From: Coriobacteriales bacterium
GTDB taxonomy: Bacteria; Actinomycetota; Coriobacteriia; Coriobacteriales; UBA8131
Length of the DNA stretch: 41,704 nt
Direction: 5' to 3'
Assembly: GCA_031263105.1 (NCBI GenBank)
Contig: JAISGJ010000063.1
Coordinates: forward strand, 1 to 41,704
The translations under genes and the position numbers were made by a program. A model generated the notes under the pieces. It was not told where the DNA came from and searched no databases. It saw only the letters and a list, made by a program, of their open reading frames with translations. Positions 255-41,613 of the stretch are shown in pieces. Position 1 is the first letter of the stretch. Every line of letters starts with the position of its first letter.

Positions 255-3200
255 CTAGGCCGCAAGCGGCTCCCTGTCCTGCGGGGTGCCCGACGTCCGG
301 TCGTCGTCCCTGCGGCGCACGACGGTGCAGGCGGCGACGATGCCGAGTGCCAGCAGTGCGGCGAACAGCACCGAGAACACGTCGAACACGACCATCGAGG
401 CGCTCATGTCCTGGGTGACGAGGAAGAGCACGACCATGACGACGCAGAGAACGGGGGCGGCTATGAGCGCCGACAGGCGCAGGCCGGCGTTGCCGTCCGA
501 GGCGTCGCCGTAGGAGGTGCTGCGGGAGGCGGCCTCGGCGCTGCCCCCGGCGGAGGCCCCGGCAGCCTGCGTCCTGTCCCGGCGGCGGCGCAAGAGGCCG
601 CGCAGGGCGGTGACGGCAAGCGCCAGGACGCCTGCGACGGTGGCGATGAGGTCGAACAGCGACCAGGTGGCCGCGCTGCCTTCGGGCGCCGCGAGGGGGA
701 CAGGGGAATCGAAGCTCTCGATCACCGGGAGGTCCTCCGCTCCGGCGGCCTCAGGGGCGGGCGGGCTGTCCGCAGGGGCAGGCGTCGCCGTTGCGGTCGT
801 CCCCGGGGCGGTCGCGGAGACGGGGGAGGGGGTCACCGGTGTCGTCGGCGCGGCGGGCGTCGGCGTCGGCGTCGGCGTGGCCGGGATGTCCGGCGCGGCC
901 GGCGTCGTCGGCGGGGCAGGCGGGGCCGGAGGAGCAGGCGGGGCCGGAGGGATCTCGCGCCAGGTGGCCGTGAGCGTCACGTCCTCGTCGGGCATGGTGA
1001 AGCTGCTGCCCGGCCTGAGCGTGCCCCCCAGAGAGGAGCGGTAGCCCTCGAAGCTGTAGCCCTCCCGCTGCGGCGCGGGCCCCACCGTGACGGTCGTGGC
1101 GAAGTCCACCCCGGTCCTGCCCGTCGGCAGGCCGGTCACTGCGGTCCCGCCCGTGGCGGGCAGCCCTGCGTCGTAGACGACGTCGTGGCTGTTCACCGAC
1201 CACACCGCGTAAAGGGCCAGGTGCCCGGTCATGGTGTGGAGTGCGCCCGTGCGGAAGGAGACCGTCGCAGACGTGGGGCTCAAGGACCAGCCTTGGAAGC
1301 TGTGGCCCTTGTAGGCGAGGGTGCCCGGACCCGCTATCGTGGCCGTCTCCCCATAGCGGTGCCCGCTTTGGGCAGGGGCGGAGCCGGAGTCGTGCCTTTG
1401 GGAGAAGTAGCTTACATAGTAGGTGTTGGTGTCCACGAGGGTCACCTGTATGGTGGCGGACGCGCCGGCCCCGTTGTAGAAGGTGAGGGGCAGGCTGAGC
1501 ATCTGGTGGGCGTTCTGGGCGTTCACGAGGGCGACGAGCTGCGCGTTGTCGACGGCGATGGACGGCTGGGCGATGCGGTGCCCGTTCCCGTCGGTCGCCT
1601 CGGAGGCGGAGAGCGTGCGGGCGATGAGGGCGTCGAGGGTCGCCTGCGTTATCTCGTAGGTGAAGTCGTTGGCCGTCACGTGCCCGTCCGCGCCCCTGCC
1701 GCCTCCGCCTCCGGCATCCTTGACGGTGACCGTGACGACGGCAGAGACGGGCCCGGGACCCGTGAAGGTGAGCGGGAAGGCCTGGCCGGCCGTCGTCGCC
1801 GCGTTTATGGCGGCGAGCTCGGAGGCGTCGACGGCGATGAGCGCGGGGCTCAAGGGCAGCCCGGTCGCGTCGCGCAGGTCTGCGGCCGCGAAGGCGATGG
1901 CCTGGGCGTCCGCTATGGCAAGCTCGCTAAGCCCCACATAGAAGTCGTTGGCCGCGATGTGGTTGTTGCCTGCGGGGGAGTTCGGGCCGCCGTGGTCGCG
2001 CAGCGTCACGGTGACGCTCGTCGCGACGCCGTCAGGCGTGGTGAAGGTCAAAGGATGGAAGCCCCGCTCGTTGGCGTGCTGGGCGGCGACGATCGCTGTG
2101 AGCTCGGCGGCGTCGACGGCGATGGTTGTCGTCGCCACCGGCAGGCCGTCCCCGTCGCGGGCGGTCACAAAGCTGAGGAGGCGCGCGAGCGCCTCGTCGA
2201 GGTCCGCCTCGTCGCAGCCGTAGGAGAAGTCGTAGGCGTTGATGACCGAGAGGCCTGCCACAGGCGCAGCGGGCCCGCCGTGGTCGTAGAGGCGCACGTT
2301 TATGGTGACGGTCTTGTGCCCGAGGGGCTCCTCGAAGGTCAAGGGCAGCGTGTCCGGCACTCCGGAGGCCTTCTGGGCGTTGATCGCCGCGAGCTCGGTG
2401 GGATCCACCACGATGCCGGAGGTCGCCTGCGGAAGGCCGTCGGTGTCGCGGGCGACGACGTGCGACAGGAGCAGCGCGAGCGCCTCGTCGATGTCTGCCT
2501 GGTCAAGGCCGTACTCGAAGTCCGACGCCGCTATGTAGGTCGAGCCCGGGGCGGGCGGCCCGGTCGGGACCACGTCGAACAGGCGCACCCTGACGGCGAC
2601 GGACTTGCCCCCGTCGGACTCGGTGAAGGTCAGGTCGAAGAAGCCCACCGTCCCGGTGCCGACGGCCGCGTTTATGGCGGCCAGCTCGCCGCCGTCCGCC
2701 GTGACGTTGCCCGCAGGCTGCGGGATGCCGTCCGTGTCGCGGGCGAAGGCGTGGGACAGCTGCCGGGCCAGCGCCTGGCCGAGCGGGGCGGCGGGGGAGC
2801 CGTCGGACTGGCGGATGCCGTACTCGAAGTCGTCTGCGGCGATGAAGGTCGTGCCCGCAGGGGGTACGGGGGGCTGGGGCGGGGCGGGGGCATAGATGCG
2901 CACGTTCACCTCGACGGAATAGGTCTGTGCGTTCTCGCTGATGCTGAAGGTGAGCTTCCTCATCGCCGACGCCCCTGCGCTCTGGACGGCCTGGATGGCG
3001 CCGAGCTGGGTGGGATCGACGCTGATGAAGGAGGCCGCTATCGCCCCGCCCGTGTCGTTCTTGGCCTGGACGGAGGAAAGCCGCTTGGCGGTCGCATTGT
3101 CAAGGGGCGCCCACCCGGCGAACACCTCGAAGTCGTTGGCCGCTATCCAGGGGGAGCCCGCCGGGGGCGTCACGGGGCCGAGGTGGTCGAAGAGGCGCAC

Positions 3201-6200
3201 CTTCACCGTGACCCGCCTGTACCCCAAAGGCTCCTCGAAGGTCAGGTCGAAGATGCCGAGCGTGCCTGCGGAGATGGCGGTGTTGATGATGCCGAGCTGG
3301 CCCGAATCCACCGCTATGGTGCCGGTCTGTACGCTGCCGTCGGTCTCAAAGGCGATGACGCGGGAGAGCTGGCGGGCCAGGTCGTCGCCGATGGCGTCCG
3401 CCGTGGAGCCGTCCAGCTTCTTGATGCCGTAGGAGAAGTTGTTGGCGAAGACGGACGTGGTGTTGTAGGAGGGGCCGTCGGGCCCTGCGCCCTGGTCGTA
3501 CAGGGTCGCGGAGACCCTGATCTCGTTCTGGGTGTTCACGTTCGGGAAGACGGGATTGTTGCCCAGGCTGGGCGTCCTGATGGTCAGGGGCCATGAGGTG
3601 CCGGCGGCCCCGGCCGTGATGGCGTCGTTGATGTCGCCGAGCTCCTGGATCGGGTCATAGAGGAAGAGCGCCCCGGGAGCATAGAGGTCCTCCAAGGGGA
3701 TGTTCCCTCCGCCGTACCAGGTGCCGAAGGCGCGCGCGAGGTGCTTGGCAAGGTCGTTGGAGCCGACGGTGCCCTGGTTGATGCCTCGGGAGAAGTGCAG
3801 GGCGGCCAGCTCGTCGAGTCCCGCATAGTTGAGGTGCGTGAACTGCATGGTGGCCGCAGAGGTGTTGCCCGCGAAGTCGGTGACGGTCGCCCAGACGTCG
3901 TAGTAAAGGATGGTGTTGGGTATCGAGGCCGAGGCAAGGGGCACGTAGTCGCCTGCAGAAGGGGTGGTCCCGATGGGCACGACGGCCACCTGGGTCTTGG
4001 AGCCGTCGATGCCGGACATGACGTTGGCCAGGTCCGAGACGTCCTCCGCATAGGAGCCGCCGGAGAGCCTGACGGCCTCCGACTCCGCACTGTCGGCAGG
4101 GCGCACGTCGCGCGAGGGCGCGTCCGAGAACGTGCGTATGTCCGGCAGGGCGAGCTCCAGTCTGGCGACCGGCGCGGTCTTGTCGATCTTGGCCACATAG
4201 GAGCTGCGGGCGGAAAGCTCGGTCGCTGCCGCGGTGCTCCCATCTGTCATGACGCCGTAGGCGGTGACGATGCCCTCTGCGCTGTAGCCCCTTGAGACGG
4301 GGGCGGCCTGAGGGGGCGGCGTGACGGCCGAGGGCGAGGCGCCGGCACCGTACCAGACGGGCGTGCCGGGGGCCGCCAGGTCGTCGAGGTAGGCAAGCCA
4401 GTGCGCGCCGGGCACCGCCGAGTAGTCGGTCACCTGCACGAAGACGTCCGTGTTGGTCCAGGTGTCCGAGGCGAGCGTGTTGGCCGGTATGGCCGCGCTG
4501 CCGGTGTAGCCGGTGATGACGGGCGTGAGCGAGGAGGTGACGAGGATGTCCTTCACGCCCGCAGGCAGGGCCACCGCGCTGTTGCCGGCGTTGTCCCAGG
4601 CCCGCACCCACACGTCGTAGCGGCCCGGCGCGGCGATCGTGGCCGAGGCGAAGTCGGTCCAGCCCGCCGCCGCCGCCGCGAGGGCGGCGCCTGAGGGGTC
4701 GTCCGCATAGGTGCCGTTAGGCACGATGAGCAGCTGGTCCGTCGTGCTGGAGGAGAAGAGCCAGGGGTTGGCGTCCGCAGAGGGCGCAAGGCCCCAGGAG
4801 CCGGAGAGCGCATCGGTGGAGGTGTCGGTGAAGCTGCCGTTGCTGTAGCTCGCATCCGGCACCGGCGCGACCTTGTCGATGCGCACGGTCTGCGCGGCGG
4901 TGCGCGCGGAGAGCTCGGTAGTGCCTACGGTGTCGATCAGCACGCCGTAGACGTCGATGCCGACGTCCGTGGTCTCCGTGGCGTAGCCCTTCGTCGCGCT
5001 GGCCGCAGTGCCCGCAGTGTAGGTGCCGTCGTACACCGCGTTCCTGAACGAGCCCGTGATGCCGTTGGGCGTGACTGCGGCCGTGAGGCCTTGGTTCGTC
5101 CATGAGCCGGAGGGGTAGGGGTCGCCTGCGATGGAAGCGCCCCCTGGGTCGTCGGCGCCGACGGCGTAGGTGATGTCGAGGAGGGGGGTGTTGGCGCTCT
5201 TGACGGTTATGGTGCGATTGGTGTCCGTGGTGGTGGAGTCGGTGTTGTCGGTTGCTCGGAGCGTCTGGGTGTATATGCCGACGTCCGTGGCGGTCGCGCC
5301 GAGCCCGCCGGCGTTGATGATGGCAACCGAGCCGTCATAGTTGCCGCCGTAGCCGCCTTTGAACTTGTCGTTGCTGTGGCCGGACCTTGCCTCGACGCCG
5401 TCTGTCTGCTCCTTTCCGGGGACGGGCTGGCCCACGGTTATGGTTTTGTTCTCGGCGCTGATGATGGGTGGAACATTGCTGCTGCCAGTGCGCTGGTACC
5501 TTTGCTCCACGACATAGTAGCCATAGCCGTTGGTGTAGTCGAAGATAAGGGTGTCGTCACTATTGAATGCATACTCCTGATAGCGTGTATATCCGCCCGT
5601 AAGGTAACTCGGCCCCAAGTCTGTGTACCAATTTATCACCTGAAGAGGATTGCTTATTGCGGGACTCGACAGAGTGTAGCTGACGGACGGGTAACGGGGG
5701 GCTATGGTGCTGCCGTCCAGCTCGATGTTCCCGTAGCGGTCCGCCGTAGAGCCGGTAAGGGTTCCGCTGTCGGAATACGCAGGCAGCGAGATCGTCAACG
5801 GATTGAGTCCCACGGGAACCAAGCGATCTGCGGCCCATTCGTACGCGCCACCTAGAACTTGATAATAATGTGGAGGTTGAGTCCACGTAATCTCGTATTG
5901 ATTGACGGTGGGCCAACCGGAGTAGCTGCTTTTGCTCTTGGGCTCTTGCCGTGCTGGAATGAGGGCGGGTATGCCGTAATTTTCTGCATACCTGTAGAGC
6001 GGATCTCCTCCGGTACTTACCAAAGACCACCCAGCTCCAGAGGGGGCGGAAACTGCATTGCCGGTGAGAAAACTGTCACTGCTGTCGCTTTGGCCGACGA
6101 GGGTCGTCTTGTAGGTCCAGTACCACTCGTACCCATCGCTCGCGACAGTAAATTCGTCTATAATTGGAGCAGGACGCGTTATGGGGTTATACGGTGTCGC

Positions 6201-6497
6201 CAGATCGCTCTTGGCAAAAATCTCTCTCGCATAATAGCCGTATCCCACTTGTGTCACATCTTCTCCCTGACCTTGAAAATATGCCACTATCGCTTCCCGC
6301 TGCGGTACGTTCCAGTAAAGGGTCGCGTGTGAATTCCGATAAAAGCCACTGGAAGTACCAACTTCCGCTACTACATCAGAGTAGGAATTGGTACCGGTAA
6401 TATCGAACCTATAAAGGCTGTATACCGATTCGGTCTCTATGCCGGACGGCACGACTTCGGCCTCGGCCGGCGTGGTGCCTCCGGGCAGCAGCGGCAT
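255..6497 (-). CDS. Giant repeat-containing surface protein, possibly phase variable
   Basis: A secreted, membrane-anchored protein of about 2080 aa; ligand unknown. Residues 1 to about 900 look like Ig-like or cadherin-like beta domains. Residues about 900-1686 hold eight related repeats of 80-95 aa, each opening with an [A/N]xDF[E/S]YG-like motif and containing an LARxLS stretch and a VDxxELAAINA stretch. Next come two InlB B-repeat (Listeria-Bacteroides) modules and a Pro/Thr/Ala-rich linker. Three C-terminal hydrophobic segments lie near 1947-1969, 2008-2032 and 2036-2060, followed by a basic tail. The first in-frame ATG is at 6497, but the open frame continues upstream through a clear signal peptide (hydrophobic core LSFALSLLLAF) that has no ATG, GTG or TTG. 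An ATG at 6684 with Shine-Dalgarno GAGAGGGG is separated from it by a 19-nt G tract and is out of frame at that length. The true start is therefore probably 6684 after tract slippage. Presence of the gene is certain; its start and expression state are not. Confidence 0.85.
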   Translation of the reverse strand: MPLLPGGTTPAEAEVVPSGIETESVYSLYRFDITGTNSYSDVVAEVGTSSGFYRNSHATLYWNVPQREAIVAYFQGQGEDVTQVGYGYYAREIFAKSDLATPYNPITRPAPIIDEFTVASDGYEWYWTYKTTLVGQSDSSDSFLTGNAVSAPSGAGWSLVSTGGDPLYRYAENYGIPALIPARQEPKSKSSYSGWPTVNQYEITWTQPPHYYQVLGGAYEWAADRLVPVGLNPLTISLPAYSDSGTLTGSTADRYGNIELDGSTIAPRYPSVSYTLSSPAISNPLQVINWYTDLGPSYLTGGYTRYQEYAFNSDDTLIFDYTNGYGYYVVEQRYQRTGSSNVPPIISAENKTITVGQPVPGKEQTDGVEARSGHSNDKFKGGYGGNYDGSVAIINAGGLGATATDVGIYTQTLRATDNTDSTTTDTNRTITVKSANTPLLDITYAVGADDPGGASIAGDPYPSGSWTNQGLTAAVTPNGITGSFRNAVYDGTYTAGTAASATKGYATETTDVGIDVYGVLIDTVGTTELSARTAAQTVRIDKVAPVPDASYSNGSFTDTSTDALSGSWGLAPSADANPWLFSSSTTDQLLIVPNGTYADDPSGAALAAAAAGWTDFASATIAAPGRYDVWVRAWDNAGNSAVALPAGVKDILVTSSLTPVITGYTGSAAIPANTLASDTWTNTDVFVQVTDYSAVPGAHWLAYLDDLAAPGTPVWYGAGASPSAVTPPPQAAPVSRGYSAEGIVTAYGVMTDGSTAAATELSARSSYVAKIDKTAPVARLELALPDIRTFSDAPSRDVRPADSAESEAVRLSGGSYAEDVSDLANVMSGIDGSKTQVAVVPIGTTPSAGDYVPLASASIPNTILYYDVWATVTDFAGNTSAATMQFTHLNYAGLDELAALHFSRGINQGTVGSNDLAKHLARAFGTWYGGGNIPLEDLYAPGALFLYDPIQELGDINDAITAGAAGTSWPLTIRTPSLGNNPVFPNVNTQNEIRVSATLYDQGAGPDGPSYNTTSVFANNFSYGIKKLDGSTADAIGDDLARQLSRVIAFETDGSVQTGTIAVDSGQLGIINTAISAGTLGIFDLTFEEPLGYRRVTVKVRLFDHLGPVTPPAGSPWIAANDFEVFAGWAPLDNATAKRLSSVQAKNDTGGAIAASFISVDPTQLGAIQAVQSAGASAMRKLTFSISENAQTYSVEVNVRIYAPAPPQPPVPPAGTTFIAADDFEYGIRQSDGSPAAPLGQALARQLSHAFARDTDGIPQPAGNVTADGGELAAINAAVGTGTVGFFDLTFTESDGGKSVAVRVRLFDVVPTGPPAPGSTYIAASDFEYGLDQADIDEALALLLSHVVARDTDGLPQATSGIVVDPTELAAINAQKASGVPDTLPLTFEEPLGHKTVTINVRLYDHGGPAAPVAGLSVINAYDFSYGCDEADLDEALARLLSFVTARDGDGLPVATTTIAVDAAELTAIVAAQHANERGFHPLTFTTPDGVATSVTVTLRDHGGPNSPAGNNHIAANDFYVGLSELAIADAQAIAFAAADLRDATGLPLSPALIAVDASELAAINAATTAGQAFPLTFTGPGPVSAVVTVTVKDAGGGGGRGADGHVTANDFTYEITQATLDALIARTLSASEATDGNGHRIAQPSIAVDNAQLVALVNAQNAHQMLSLPLTFYNGAGASATIQVTLVDTNTYYVSYFSQRHDSGSAPAQSGHRYGETATIAGPGTLAYKGHSFQGWSLSPTSATVSFRTGALHTMTGHLALYAVWSVNSHDVVYDAGLPATGGTAVTGLPTGRTGVDFATTVTVGPAPQREGYSFEGYRSSLGGTLRPGSSFTMPDEDVTLTATWREIPPAPPAPPAPPAPPTTPAAPDIPATPTPTPTPAAPTTPVTPSPVSATAPGTTATATPAPADSPPAPEAAGAEDLPVIESFDSPVPLAAPEGSAATWSLFDLIATVAGVLALAVTALRGLLRRRRDRTQAAGASAGGSAEAASRSTSYGDASDGNAGLRLSALIAAPVLCVVMVVLFLVTQDMSASMVVFDVFSVLFAALLALGIVAACTVVRRRDDDRTSGTPQDREPLAA

Positions 6498-6555
6498 CAG
6501 GGTGAAGGCAAGGAGGAGCGACAGGGCAAAGGAGAGTGCGCGGTGCGCCGTGTCT

Positions 6556-6684
6556 CTAAGGCTGTGAAGGCTTAAGGTTGCGGCACCCCCCCCCCCCCCC
6601 CCCCGCAGATCTACTCGTCCGCTGTGCGGGAGCAGGGCTGCGCCCTGTGGTGCCGCTCGAAGGTCTCGACATGTGCGTGTGCAT
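6556..6684 (-). other. Out-of-frame leader ORF through the poly-G tract
   Basis: Starts at the ATG at 6684, preceded on the minus strand by GAGAGGGG at suitable spacing. It reads a short Ser/Pro/Arg-rich stretch and then glycines from the G tract, and ends at TAG (6556-6558) with the 19-nt tract shown. With 18 or 21 G the same reading enters the signal peptide and the 2080-aa frame. With 20 G it stops at TAA (6572-6574). This is best read as the 5' end of the surface-protein gene in an OFF state, or as an assembly error of one base. Confidence 0.55.
6586..6604. repeat. Poly-C (coding-strand poly-G) tract, 19 nt
   Basis: Nineteen consecutive C on the plus strand, which is poly-G on the coding strand of the surface-protein gene. 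It lies between a translation start (6684) and the signal-peptide frame. Homopolymeric G tracts in 5' coding regions are the classic contingency-locus arrangement for slipped-strand mispairing in other bacteria. Its position and frame logic are visible in the sequence; actual length variation is inferred. Confidence 0.85.
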
Positions 6685-6862
6685 GGTAGGGCCCCTCTCT
6701 TCGTGCATGTGCCGACAGTCCGATTCGGAGGTTATATGCTCCTAAAATGATAGCGTTTAACCTCACTCGTGCTATGACATTCCAGCCAATTCTATCCTTT
6801 GGGCGCAGTTGCCGCAATCGCCCGTTCGCCCGGGCGAACGGCACACAGCACAGGGCCTACTC

Positions 6863-7181
6863 GCCGCACCCCCGCCGCAGGGCCTGCCCGTCGCACCCCC
6901 GCCGCAGGGCCCACCAGCCGCACCCCCGCCGCAGGCCCTGCCCGTCGCACCCCTGTCACAGGCCCTGCCCGTCGCACCCCACTGTCATTCCGAACCGAGG
7001 GCGAAGCCCGAGCGTGAGGAACCTTTGGCTGCGAAGCGGCCAACCGGCCCGGCTGAGCGCTAAGGCGCTCAAAGATTCCTCGGTTCCGGGGCTGGCGCCC
7101 CTGCCCTCGGAATGACAGTGGGGGGGAGCGGCCCGTAACGCGCAGGCCCTGCCCGCCGCACCCCCGCCGCAGGGCCTGTCC
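6863..7181. repeat. 27-bp tandem repeat array split by an inserted element
   Basis: Four full units at 6863-6889, 6890-6916, 6917-6943 and 6944-6970 share the core cgcacccccgccgcagg and differ at a few bases. Unit five begins at 6971 (gtcgcacccc) and breaks at 6980, where the REP-like element starts. The remainder of a unit (cgcaggccctgccc) resumes at 7141-7154, followed by another full unit at 7155-7181. The split unit shows that the palindromic element was inserted into a pre-existing array. Confidence 0.85.
6977..7126. mobile_element. REP/MITE-like palindromic element, copy A
   Basis: Ends are inverted: ccccactgtcattccg on the left and cggaatgacagtgggg on the right, with imperfect internal pairing (gaggaacct against gattcctcgg). 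The broken 27-bp unit suggests the inserted block spans roughly 6981-7140, ending in cgtaac. It carries no ORF of its own. Related copies lie at 11724-11889, about 28288-28345 (partial) and 41639 to the window end. Confidence 0.75.
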
Positions 7182-7338: not shown

Positions 7339-10008
7339 ATGGGATACGGGAGAGGCCTGAGGCGCACGGCGCACAGGGCTGCCTTGGCGGCTCTGGTGCT
7401 CTGTCTTGCGGCATCCGCCTTCGGGGGATGGGGGAGGCCGGGGAGCGCGGCAGCTGCGGAGGCTCCGGTGCCGGTCGCAGGGGACGTCGAGGCTGCTTTG
7501 GCACAGGGAGGCCCCGGGACGTCCGGCCTCATTGGGCCGCTGGCCACGGGCGCCTTCACGGTGACGGGCGGCGCGGAGGGCGTGGACTACAGCTACTCGG
7601 GCGGCGTCCTCACGATACAGACCTCCATGCCACTGACCATATCCATGGCGAGCGGCTCGGCCACGTCGGACAGGATAGCCGTGGCCGTCGGCGTGGCGGC
7701 CGCCTTGACGCTCAGCGGCGTCTCGATCGATGTGTCGGGCGCAGCCGGCGCTGCGGCCCTTAATGTGGAAGGCGGCTCGCTCGCGCTCACGTTGGTGGGC
7801 GAGAACGTGCTGGAGAGCGGGGACGGCTATGCAGGGCTCCAGCTCTGGGGCCTGTCAAGCCTTGCCATAACGGCAAAGGACGAGGGCCAGACCCTCACGG
7901 CCAAGGCCGGCGGCCTCTACGGGGCGGGCATAGGGGCCGGGGACAGAACCGGGGCGCCGGGAGACGTCGAGCGCATCGAGATATCCGGCGGCACCGTCAC
8001 GGCTGTGGGCGGCGAGGGCGGCGGCGCGGGCATAGGGGGCGGCTATCAAAGCGGGGTGGACCTCATCGAGATATCCGGCGGCACCGTCACGGCTGTGGGC
8101 GGCGCGGGCGGCGGCGCGGGCATAGGATGCGGCGTCGAGAGCGGCGTGCGCGTCGTCGAGGTATCCGGCGGCACCGTCGTCGCGACCGGAGGCCGTCATG
8201 GCGCCGGCATAGGGGGCGGTTTCGAAGGCAGCGAGGTGGGCGACATAGCGATCTCCGGCGGCACCGTCACGGCCACGGGCGGCGGCGGCGCGGGCATAGG
8301 GGGCGGATATGCCCACAGCCCGGCGCACGTCGTCGAGGTATCCGGCGGCACCGTCACGGCCACGGGCGCCTGGATCGGCGGCGCGGGCATAGGGGGCGGC
8401 GCCCAAAGCCCTGTCGGCGACATAGCGATATCGGGCGGCGTGGTCGTGGCCGTCGGCGGCGCATCCAAAGACAAGGACGTCGGCGGCGGCGCGGGCATAG
8501 GAGGCGGATTCTTCGACAGTGAGGCCGGCGACATAGCGATATCCGGCGGCGAGGTCACGGCCGCTGGCAGCGCTTTGGGCGGCGCGGGCATAGGCGGCGG
8601 CTCCGGCAGCCAGGCCGGCGACATAGCGATATCCGGCGGCACTGTTGCCGCCACAGGCGGTGCCGTCGACCTGTCGGGCATAGGCGGCGGCGCGGGCATA
8701 GGCGGCGGCGCGGGCTTGAGCTGGGTGGGCGGCAGCCAGGCGGGCGGCATACGGCTCACGGGCGGCACGGTGCATGCATCCTCTCGCATCGAAGGATCGC
8801 AGGACATCGGAAACGGCCCCGGCGAAAGCTGCGCCGCCTCCATCGTCGTGGACGGCGGCTCCATTCAGGCGGGGCACGGTGCGATGGCATACGGGAACCC
8901 GGCGTCCGTCGAGGTGAGGAACTCCGCTGCATCGCCTGTGCGGGTCTATCCCAACACGCTTGTGCTCGGCTCCGGGACCGCAGGGGCCCAGGCGGCCGTC
9001 ACCGCCGGCATCATCGACGGGGTGCCCTGCGAGGCGACCCCTGACCCCACGGGCGGCGTCTACGGGATACGGGACGTGGCCACCGACGGCTCCGGGCGGG
9101 TGTGCCTGTGGCTGCCGGAGGCCGCGAGCGGCTCGGTCGGCCTTATGGCGGGCCCCGTGGGCTTCGAGTTCTCCTACGGACGTTCGGCAGGCCCTGTGGC
9201 AGCGACGCTTGCCGCGCCCGCCTTGGCGTCGGCCTCCCCCTCCGGTGCGGGCGCTGCCACGGAGGGCGCCTTGGTGCTGGCCTTCAGCGTCCCGATGGAC
9301 GTGTTTGCGGGCACGGTCGTGCTGCGCCCCGTCTCAGGGCAGGCCGTGACGCTCGGCGCAGGGACGTGGAGCGCAGACGGTGCCGTCTACACCGTCGCCT
9401 ACTCGGGGCTCGCCCACGGGGCCGCCTACACCGTGGAGGCCTCCGGCTTCAGGACCGCCGTGCTGGGCATCGAGCCTTCGGGCGGCTCCGCACAGAGCTT
9501 CGTGACGCAGGCGGACGGCAGTGACGACGGCGGCGGCGACAGCAACGGCGGCGGCGACAGCAACGGCGGCGGCAACGGCGCCGGCGGCAACGGCGACAGC
9601 AACGGCGACAGCGACAGCGGCGGCAAGGGCGGCGACGGCACCAACGGCAACGGCACCAACGGCACCGGCGGCGCCGGCGGCGGCACCGGCGGCGATGTCA
9701 ACGGCGACAAGGGCGGAAGCGCCCTCCCCGCCACCGGCGACTCCCCGCTGCCGACCCTGGCCGCAGCGCTCCTAGCCGCGCTGGCCTTGGTCGTGCTGGG
9801 CGTGACCTCCCTCAGCCGTGCGGCGCGGCTCCGCCGCTTCTCAGTACTTAACGGAGCACTGGGCCTTTTGCAATGGTGCGACGAGCCGTGCGACGGTCTC
9901 CACGTGCCAGGTCTGGGGGAAGAGGTCGAGGGGCACGGCCTTCACGAGGCGGTAGCCCCGTGCGGCGAGCCGCTGCACGTCGCGGGCGAGCGTCGCGGGG
10001 TCGCATGA
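7339..10008 (+). CDS. LPxTG-anchored Gly-rich surface protein
   Basis: A predicted cell-wall protein of 889 aa as read. It has an N-terminal signal peptide of about 41 residues (RRTAHRAALAALVLCLAAS, then AAAAEAPV). Residues about 85-200 resemble the Cthe_2159-type carbohydrate-binding, beta-helix-like domain. About ten repeats of the GGTVTAxGGxGGAGIGGG type cover residues 215-475, as expected of a parallel beta-helix. An Ig-like (Big_5/SbsA-type) module lies near 630-715. A Gly/Asn/Asp/Ser spacer then leads to the sortase signal LPATG (796-800), a hydrophobic segment and RAARLRRF (to residue 834). A normal sorting signal would stop there, but the frame runs 55 residues further, antisense to the 3' end of rlmD. 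One frame over, TAA occurs at 9849-9851, so a small frameshift near the end is likely. The Shine-Dalgarno is gaagggg. The substrate is unknown. Confidence 0.85.
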   Translation: MGYGRGLRRTAHRAALAALVLCLAASAFGGWGRPGSAAAAEAPVPVAGDVEAALAQGGPGTSGLIGPLATGAFTVTGGAEGVDYSYSGGVLTIQTSMPLTISMASGSATSDRIAVAVGVAAALTLSGVSIDVSGAAGAAALNVEGGSLALTLVGENVLESGDGYAGLQLWGLSSLAITAKDEGQTLTAKAGGLYGAGIGAGDRTGAPGDVERIEISGGTVTAVGGEGGGAGIGGGYQSGVDLIEISGGTVTAVGGAGGGAGIGCGVESGVRVVEVSGGTVVATGGRHGAGIGGGFEGSEVGDIAISGGTVTATGGGGAGIGGGYAHSPAHVVEVSGGTVTATGAWIGGAGIGGGAQSPVGDIAISGGVVVAVGGASKDKDVGGGAGIGGGFFDSEAGDIAISGGEVTAAGSALGGAGIGGGSGSQAGDIAISGGTVAATGGAVDLSGIGGGAGIGGGAGLSWVGGSQAGGIRLTGGTVHASSRIEGSQDIGNGPGESCAASIVVDGGSIQAGHGAMAYGNPASVEVRNSAASPVRVYPNTLVLGSGTAGAQAAVTAGIIDGVPCEATPDPTGGVYGIRDVATDGSGRVCLWLPEAASGSVGLMAGPVGFEFSYGRSAGPVAATLAAPALASASPSGAGAATEGALVLAFSVPMDVFAGTVVLRPVSGQAVTLGAGTWSADGAVYTVAYSGLAHGAAYTVEASGFRTAVLGIEPSGGSAQSFVTQADGSDDGGGDSNGGGDSNGGGNGAGGNGDSNGDSDSGGKGGDGTNGNGTNGTGGAGGGTGGDVNGDKGGSALPATGDSPLPTLAAALLAALALVVLGVTSLSRAARLRRFSVLNGALGLLQWCDEPCDGLHVPGLGEEVEGHGLHEAVAPCGEPLHVAGERRGVA

Positions 10009-41527: not shown

Positions 41528-41555
41528 CCCCCCCCCCCCCCCCCCCGCCCCCCCC
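41528..41555. repeat. Poly-C tract, 19 nt plus 8 nt
   Basis: Nineteen C (41528-41546), one G, then eight C, about 35 bp after the acyl-CoA synthetase stop. The left flank contains agttactgttcgcgggcgg. A cgttacgg motif recurs before the next tract, so the two tracts look like duplicated modules. Confidence 0.85.
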
Positions 41556-41595
41556 GGGCGTGCGGGGGCATGGCTTCCACCCGTTACGGAGCCCG

Positions 41596-41613
41596 CCCCC
41601 CCCCCCCCCCCCC
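41596..41613. repeat. Poly-C tract, 18 nt
   Basis: Eighteen C following cgttacggagcccg, then tgccccctcgggcc and the REP-like element. Combined with the previous tract, this makes the end of the window very C-rich and free of genes. Confidence 0.85.

Follow-up and report, generated by a model that had tools for sequence, protein, structure and literature searches.

A poly-G tract between the start codon and the signal peptide as a probable phase-variation switch of a giant surface-protein gene in Coriobacteriales

The window, by which we mean the whole stretch of 41,704 nucleotides analysed here from a Coriobacteriales genome, carries on its minus strand the gene of a giant surface protein, the body of which spans positions 255 to 6497 and comprises 2080 amino acids when translated from an internal ATG at 6497. 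The protein contains Flg_new and InlB-type B repeats and C-terminal transmembrane segments, which together with a signal peptide mark it as a surface or interaction molecule, and the 2080-aa frame itself is unbroken and has codon-like statistics. In translation, the n-region and hydrophobic core of the signal peptide (AATLSLHSLRDTAHRALSFALSLLLAF) are found in the frame of the giant open reading frame at 6504–6584 (minus strand). Upstream of it lies a homopolymer of 19 G (C on the plus strand) at 6586–6604, the proposed slippage site, and a leader segment at 6605–6684, translated as MHTHMSRPSSGTTGRSPAPAQRTSRSAG, connects the tract to a proposed ATG start at 6682–6684. Nine bases upstream of this ATG there is a Shine-Dalgarno-like GAGAGG at 6694–6699.

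This arrangement had been proposed in a sequence-only reading of the window, and the tract (minus strand 6604–6586) and the ATG at 6684 with its Shine-Dalgarno sequence (6699–6694) agree with that reading to the base. It also placed the signal peptide in the main frame without a start codon of its own, which holds, while its position for the hydrophobic core has to be corrected to 6536–6504. Similarly, the ATG does lead into a tract that precedes the signal peptide, with the spacing now refined, since the tract lies 77 nt after the ATG. Further upstream, a 27-bp tandem repeat of 4.8 copies (CAGGGCCTGCCCGTCGCACCCCCGCCG) occupies 6851–6980, between the giant gene and a divergent gene at 7339 that encodes an 889-aa beta-helix-repeat protein (7339–10005) and has internal tandem repeats of 90 bp and 177 bp (7974–8698).

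We now turn our attention to the reading frames. All tract lengths from 16 to 23 G were rebuilt in silico, and each version was translated from the ATG at 6684. Only two of these lengths yield a long product, namely 18 G with 2142 aa and 21 G with 2143 aa, both reading through the signal peptide (..HRALSFALSLLLAFTLMPLLPGG..). With the 19 G of the assembly, translation meets a stop at 6558–6556 after 42 codons, and with 20 G a stop at 6574–6572 after 37 codons; these outcomes reproduce exactly what the earlier reading had predicted. The tract thus sits in the 5' coding part of the gene, and its length decides between a full-length and a truncated product. The three upstream frames that lead into the tract differ. 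The first closes 6 nt before it, the second is open for 127 nt and has no ATG, GTG or TTG, and the third contains ATGs at −104, −80 (with the Shine-Dalgarno sequence) and −68. Since start codons are available in a single upstream frame, the ON state is limited to one of the three length classes modulo 3. In the main frame, the segment from the tract to the hydrophobic core contains no ATG, GTG or TTG. The first in-frame ATG after the tract is at 6497, and a start there would remove that core. No TTGACA/TATNNT pair flanks the tract, which sets it apart from the promoter-spacer type.

It is important to point out that the length of 19 G is the consensus of one metagenome-assembled genome (MAG; 86% complete, 6.5% contamination, 250 contigs). 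Such short-read consensus lengths are unreliable for long tracts, and the assembled length at this locus is unsafe. The OFF state assigned to the gene is thus correct for the assembled consensus, and the state in the cells may differ from it.

Homologues of the window protein are few. For its first 600 aa, none was found in the GTDB contig collection, and in 399 genomes of the order the same search returned only a paralogue in the source genome itself and one protein of a relative (labelled G018). A stretch of 41 aa in the signal-peptide region of this paralogue, on contig C197, is 66% identical to that of the window protein, and the contig runs out in a homopolymer at the exact codon where the window tract ends. 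This homopolymer is assembled as C on the sense strand, and because it is contig-terminal both its base and its length are unsafe. The G018 protein is another giant surface protein, 42% identical over ca 230 residues to a part that lies beyond the signal peptide. It has a long leader and no tract, which counts against the interpretation as a switch. The upstream leader DNA of the window gene was also sought elsewhere in the genome, and nothing beyond chance was found.

Tracts at the start of coding regions do recur in other genes. In the source genome (G000), five 5' coding tracts can be read, including that of the window gene, all with G on the sense strand. A LuxR/MalT regulator has 16 G and is OFF, being joined at 14 or 17 and cut inside its conserved N-terminal part, and a beta-helix/Big_5 surface protein has 18 G and is also OFF, being joined at 17 or 20. 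A LuxR regulator with 14 G and a GT2 glycosyltransferase with 24 G are ON. The LuxR/MalT tract is located at 2333–2348 of locus L011, counted on the reverse strand; a phase-variable regulator of this type could switch a whole regulon.

The remaining genomes discussed under labels (G002, G016, G018, G020, G027, G060, G061 and G176) are relatives, and three of them, G002, G016 and G027, belong to other genera of the same family. G002 has an open reading frame of 4686 aa with the arrangement SD-ATG-MGNTTDIGP-[G10]-n-region-RVLSFVLAFLLAFTLMPL, which is in frame and ON. In G016 the order SD-ATG-[G10]-signal peptide is found, joined at 11 G and assembled with 10 G, that is, OFF, and a surface protein of G027 is assembled with 12 G, joined at 13 and likewise OFF. 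By BLASTP, the 4686-aa protein has no significant similarity to that of the window, which indicates that the two genes are independent and that the layout probably arose, or was kept, more than once. The comparison with homologues that the sequence-only reading called for is therefore answered by independent genes of other genera, G002 and G016, that share the order of start, tract and signal peptide.

Variation of tract length between copies of one gene is met in G020, which has seven prepilin-like paralogues of the form GAAGGGAGCGGGAACACATGAGCGC..ATGCC(C)[Gn]CTCATAG, with n = 11, 12, 12, 13, 13, 13 and 14 (contigs C6, C12, C16, C34, C51, C64 and C68; L324–L330). The tract follows a few codons after the ATG, the flanks are near-identical while the lengths differ, and read-through is limited to the copy with 14 G. 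Four of the copies were scanned, and in each the ON frame contains the Pfam prepilin motif N_methyl; the set would thus represent a phase-variable prepilin-like gene family. Considering all coding tracts with a readable frame, 4 of 15 are ON. A set of constantly needed genes would be ON throughout, whereas the observed fraction is near the one third expected of a drifting length. The coding tracts found are runs of G on the sense strand and sit at the 5' end of their genes.

The window tract is also longer than expected by chance. With expectations from a dinucleotide Markov model, G/C runs of at least 18 should occur 2e-5 times in the window, and four are observed: 58–78, 6586–6604, 41528–41546 and 41596–41613. 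Only the tract at 6586 is in a coding 5' end, while the other three are intergenic and are not assigned to the switch. The first of these, 21 G on the plus strand at 58–78, lies past the 3' end of the giant gene and 57 bp from the contig end. The other two, on the minus strand (C19 at 41528–41546 and C18 at 41596–41613), lie a short way beyond the 3' end of an AMP-binding (acyl-CoA ligase-like) gene and adjoin a REP-like GGATGACAGTGGGG sequence. Over the whole source genome there are ca 166 G tracts of at least 11 (72 + 94), compared to ca 7 expected.

Sequencing artefacts were considered as a source of the tracts. Among 118 surveyed tracts, the distance to a contig end exceeds 300 bp in 43 and is 4–300 bp in 59, while 16 touch an end. 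The 59 near-end tracts are balanced in direction, 30 with G pointing outward and 29 inward, which argues that internal and near-end tracts are real sequence, and the view that all tracts are artefacts was rejected for these two groups. It was accepted for the 16 end-touching tracts, all of which have G outward and reach lengths of up to 86 (for example L036, L084, L085, L111 and L113). These look like two-colour read artefacts, probably poly-G read tails that extend real tracts, and tract lengths in the source MAG should be used with care for this reason. A G tract is present within 150 bp of the end in many contigs of this MAG.

By simple gene calls most of the surveyed tracts are intergenic. 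Frequently they follow the 3' end of a gene at a distance of a few bases and read as C on that gene's sense strand, and others sit inside REP-like sequence ending GATGACAGTGGGG. The idea that every tract is a switch was rejected on these grounds; many of the intergenic tracts are probably not switches. It follows that a tract beside a gene is weak evidence alone, and that tracts can arise without selection, which was counted against a switch at the window locus. The case for a switch is carried instead by the position of the tracts within genes. As a separate observation, a REP-like intergenic element (..CTCGGGATGACAGTGGGG) often adjoins G tracts (window 41528–41613; L013, L038, L090), and its G-rich end may seed tract growth. 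A dense cluster of G runs (12, 18, 33, 9 and 14) beside a REP-like repeat is also present at 3278–3381 of L134, on the 3.38-Mb contig of G061.

A second type of tract was considered, in which the G run separates the −35 and −10 elements of a promoter. The pattern TTGACA, nine or more G, TANNNT occurs 27 times (some overlapping) in the 399 genomes of the order, compared to once for the reversed control, and the predicted spacers are mostly 14–20 nt. Downstream of many of these tracts are signal-peptide proteins of ca 570–1360 aa. In the source genome, paralogous LRR/Flg_new proteins lie behind promoter tracts of 16, 17 and 20 G, and in G176 tandem genes lie behind promoter-type tracts. Isolates such as Enorma phocaeensis An718 (G060, contig C14) have G tracts between the −35 and −10 of surface-protein promoters, so that the promoter type exists in a cultured strain. 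The tracts of the source genome (14–24) are longer than the promoter tracts of isolate genomes (9–11). We have also searched the GTDB contigs for TTGACA, nine or more G, TATNNT, which gave at least 120 stretches (L139–L258) in a search without a shuffled control. Those listed come from Clostridia, Bacilli, Treponema, Saccharibacteria, Alphaproteobacteria and others, both gut and environmental, so that promoter poly-G is not special to Coriobacteriales.

The mismatch repair background was examined in 101 relatives. None has a MutS1 hit over the cut-off, while the control genomes are positive, and NucS_C gives only fragments of 38–55 positions with at most 25.6 bits, too short and weak to be counted as NucS, which was thus rejected as a substitute repair protein. 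This agrees with the published result that all analysed Coriobacteriia are without NucS and MutS-MutL (Castaneda-Garcia et al., PMC5290159). In Neisseria, mismatch-repair mutations raise the switching of mononucleotide tracts 100- to 1000-fold (PMC3639595). With neither MutS nor a convincing NucS, slippage in these relatives should go largely unrepaired. The number of G tracts per genome varies from 0 to ca 160 although the lack of repair is order-wide, so that missing mismatch repair of the known kinds is likely to be permissive and is not the whole cause.

Taken as a whole, the G19 tract is most probably a translational slipped-strand contingency switch, assembled in the OFF state. Slipped-strand mispairing during replication would add or remove G residues. 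At lengths that are multiples of three (18, 21 and so on), the ATG at 6684 and its 28-aa leader would be joined in one frame, through a run of glycines, to the signal peptide and the 2080-aa body, and the protein could be exported (ON), while at other lengths translation would halt after ca 40 codons and no exportable protein would be made (OFF). Switching of this kind would serve antigen or adhesin diversity. The tract, its three-frame logic and the finding of the same layout, at differing tract lengths, in further genes and in other genera are read directly from the DNA, while slippage in living cells, the switching of expression and its role in diversity are what we infer from them. The slipped-strand logic of the earlier reading is thus supported at the sequence level by the single ON class, the recurrence in other genera, the differing lengths in G020 and the C197 paralogue with its contig break at the matching codon.

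Neutral growth of G tracts in a lineage without known mismatch repair could also have broken the window gene, leaving a decaying pseudogene and no selected switch. The ca 166 tracts of the genome, most of those surveyed being intergenic, a repair background with neither MutS nor a convincing NucS, and the out-of-frame assembled length would all fit. Against it speak the 2080-aa frame, intact in other respects and with codon-like statistics, the same layout in the independent genes of G002 and G016 and in the seven paralogues of G020, and the position of the coding tracts found, as sense-strand G runs at 5' ends. We consider this explanation improbable. Another option is that the assembled length is wrong and that the true tract is in frame, for example with 18 G, in which case the gene would simply be on and the tract would encode a stable glycine run. 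The MAG consensus, the artefact-like G extensions of contig-terminal tracts and the longer tracts of this genome compared to isolate promoters speak for it, but the balanced directions of the near-end tracts indicate that the tracts are real, and a real pure run of 18 G should slip in any case where mismatch repair is missing, which makes this scenario quite improbable. Finally, the tract could belong to an untranslated leader with a start further downstream, its length being irrelevant or tuning transcription only, as the many intergenic and promoter-spacer tracts might suggest, but this is very improbable considering that no in-frame start codon follows the tract ahead of the core, that ATG 6497 would lose the core and that no promoter pair surrounds the tract.

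On these structural tests the window locus would belong with the translational poly-G contingency loci. It resembles the poly-G/poly-C genes of Neisseria and Campylobacter (for example lgtG and hmbR), where an in-frame mononucleotide tract sets ON or OFF by its length modulo 3 and where surface and glycan genes are typical targets (PMC3639595, PMC3786947, PMC6321876). It differs from them in that the host is an actinomycetote (Coriobacteriales) without known mismatch repair, that the tract lies between start and signal peptide, and that switching is predicted from the sequence. The porA gene of Neisseria meningitidis, with poly-G between −35 and −10 (PMC3639595), has the same layout as the promoter-type tracts of the order, where G9–G20 lies between TTGACA and TATNNT ahead of surface-protein genes; this mechanism does not apply to the tract of the window gene, around which there is no promoter pair. 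In the 5' homopolymeric tracts, a general mechanism according to Orsi 2010 (inlA of Listeria, swrA of Bacillus), an out-of-frame tract likewise gives a short truncated peptide, although these tracts are short poly-A/T and the present one is long poly-G; Actinobacteria and Coriobacteriia are not mentioned there (PMC2831843). A literature search on phase variation in Coriobacteriia, Eggerthella or Collinsella, with most subscription journals outside its coverage, returned nothing relevant, which is weak evidence for novelty. The kind of switch is thus already known, while its extent in Coriobacteriales appears to be undescribed.

Phase variation by simple repeats has been described mainly in Gram-negative mucosal pathogens, and Coriobacteriales include common gut commensals. 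The interest of the switch lies in its host group, its extent and the mismatch-repair background. With moderate confidence, we propose that a part of the Coriobacteriales, gut-associated and without MutS-MutL and NucS, carries a large poly-G phasome of translational and promoter-spacer tracts, by which the cell surface would be continuously diversified through slippage that known mismatch repair does not correct. Its translational targets would be giant surface proteins (before the signal peptide), prepilin-like families, LuxR regulators and glycosyltransferases, and its promoter-spacer targets repeat-rich surface proteins. The tracts break short-read assemblies at such genes, so that these are probably under-reported. 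If the proposal is true, surface antigens, adhesins and prepilin-like proteins would be mixed within one population, and descriptions based on single genomes would mislead. A class without both known mismatch-repair systems would also provide a natural test case for the evolution of contingency loci under unrepaired slippage, and for the existence of an as yet unrecognised repair system there.
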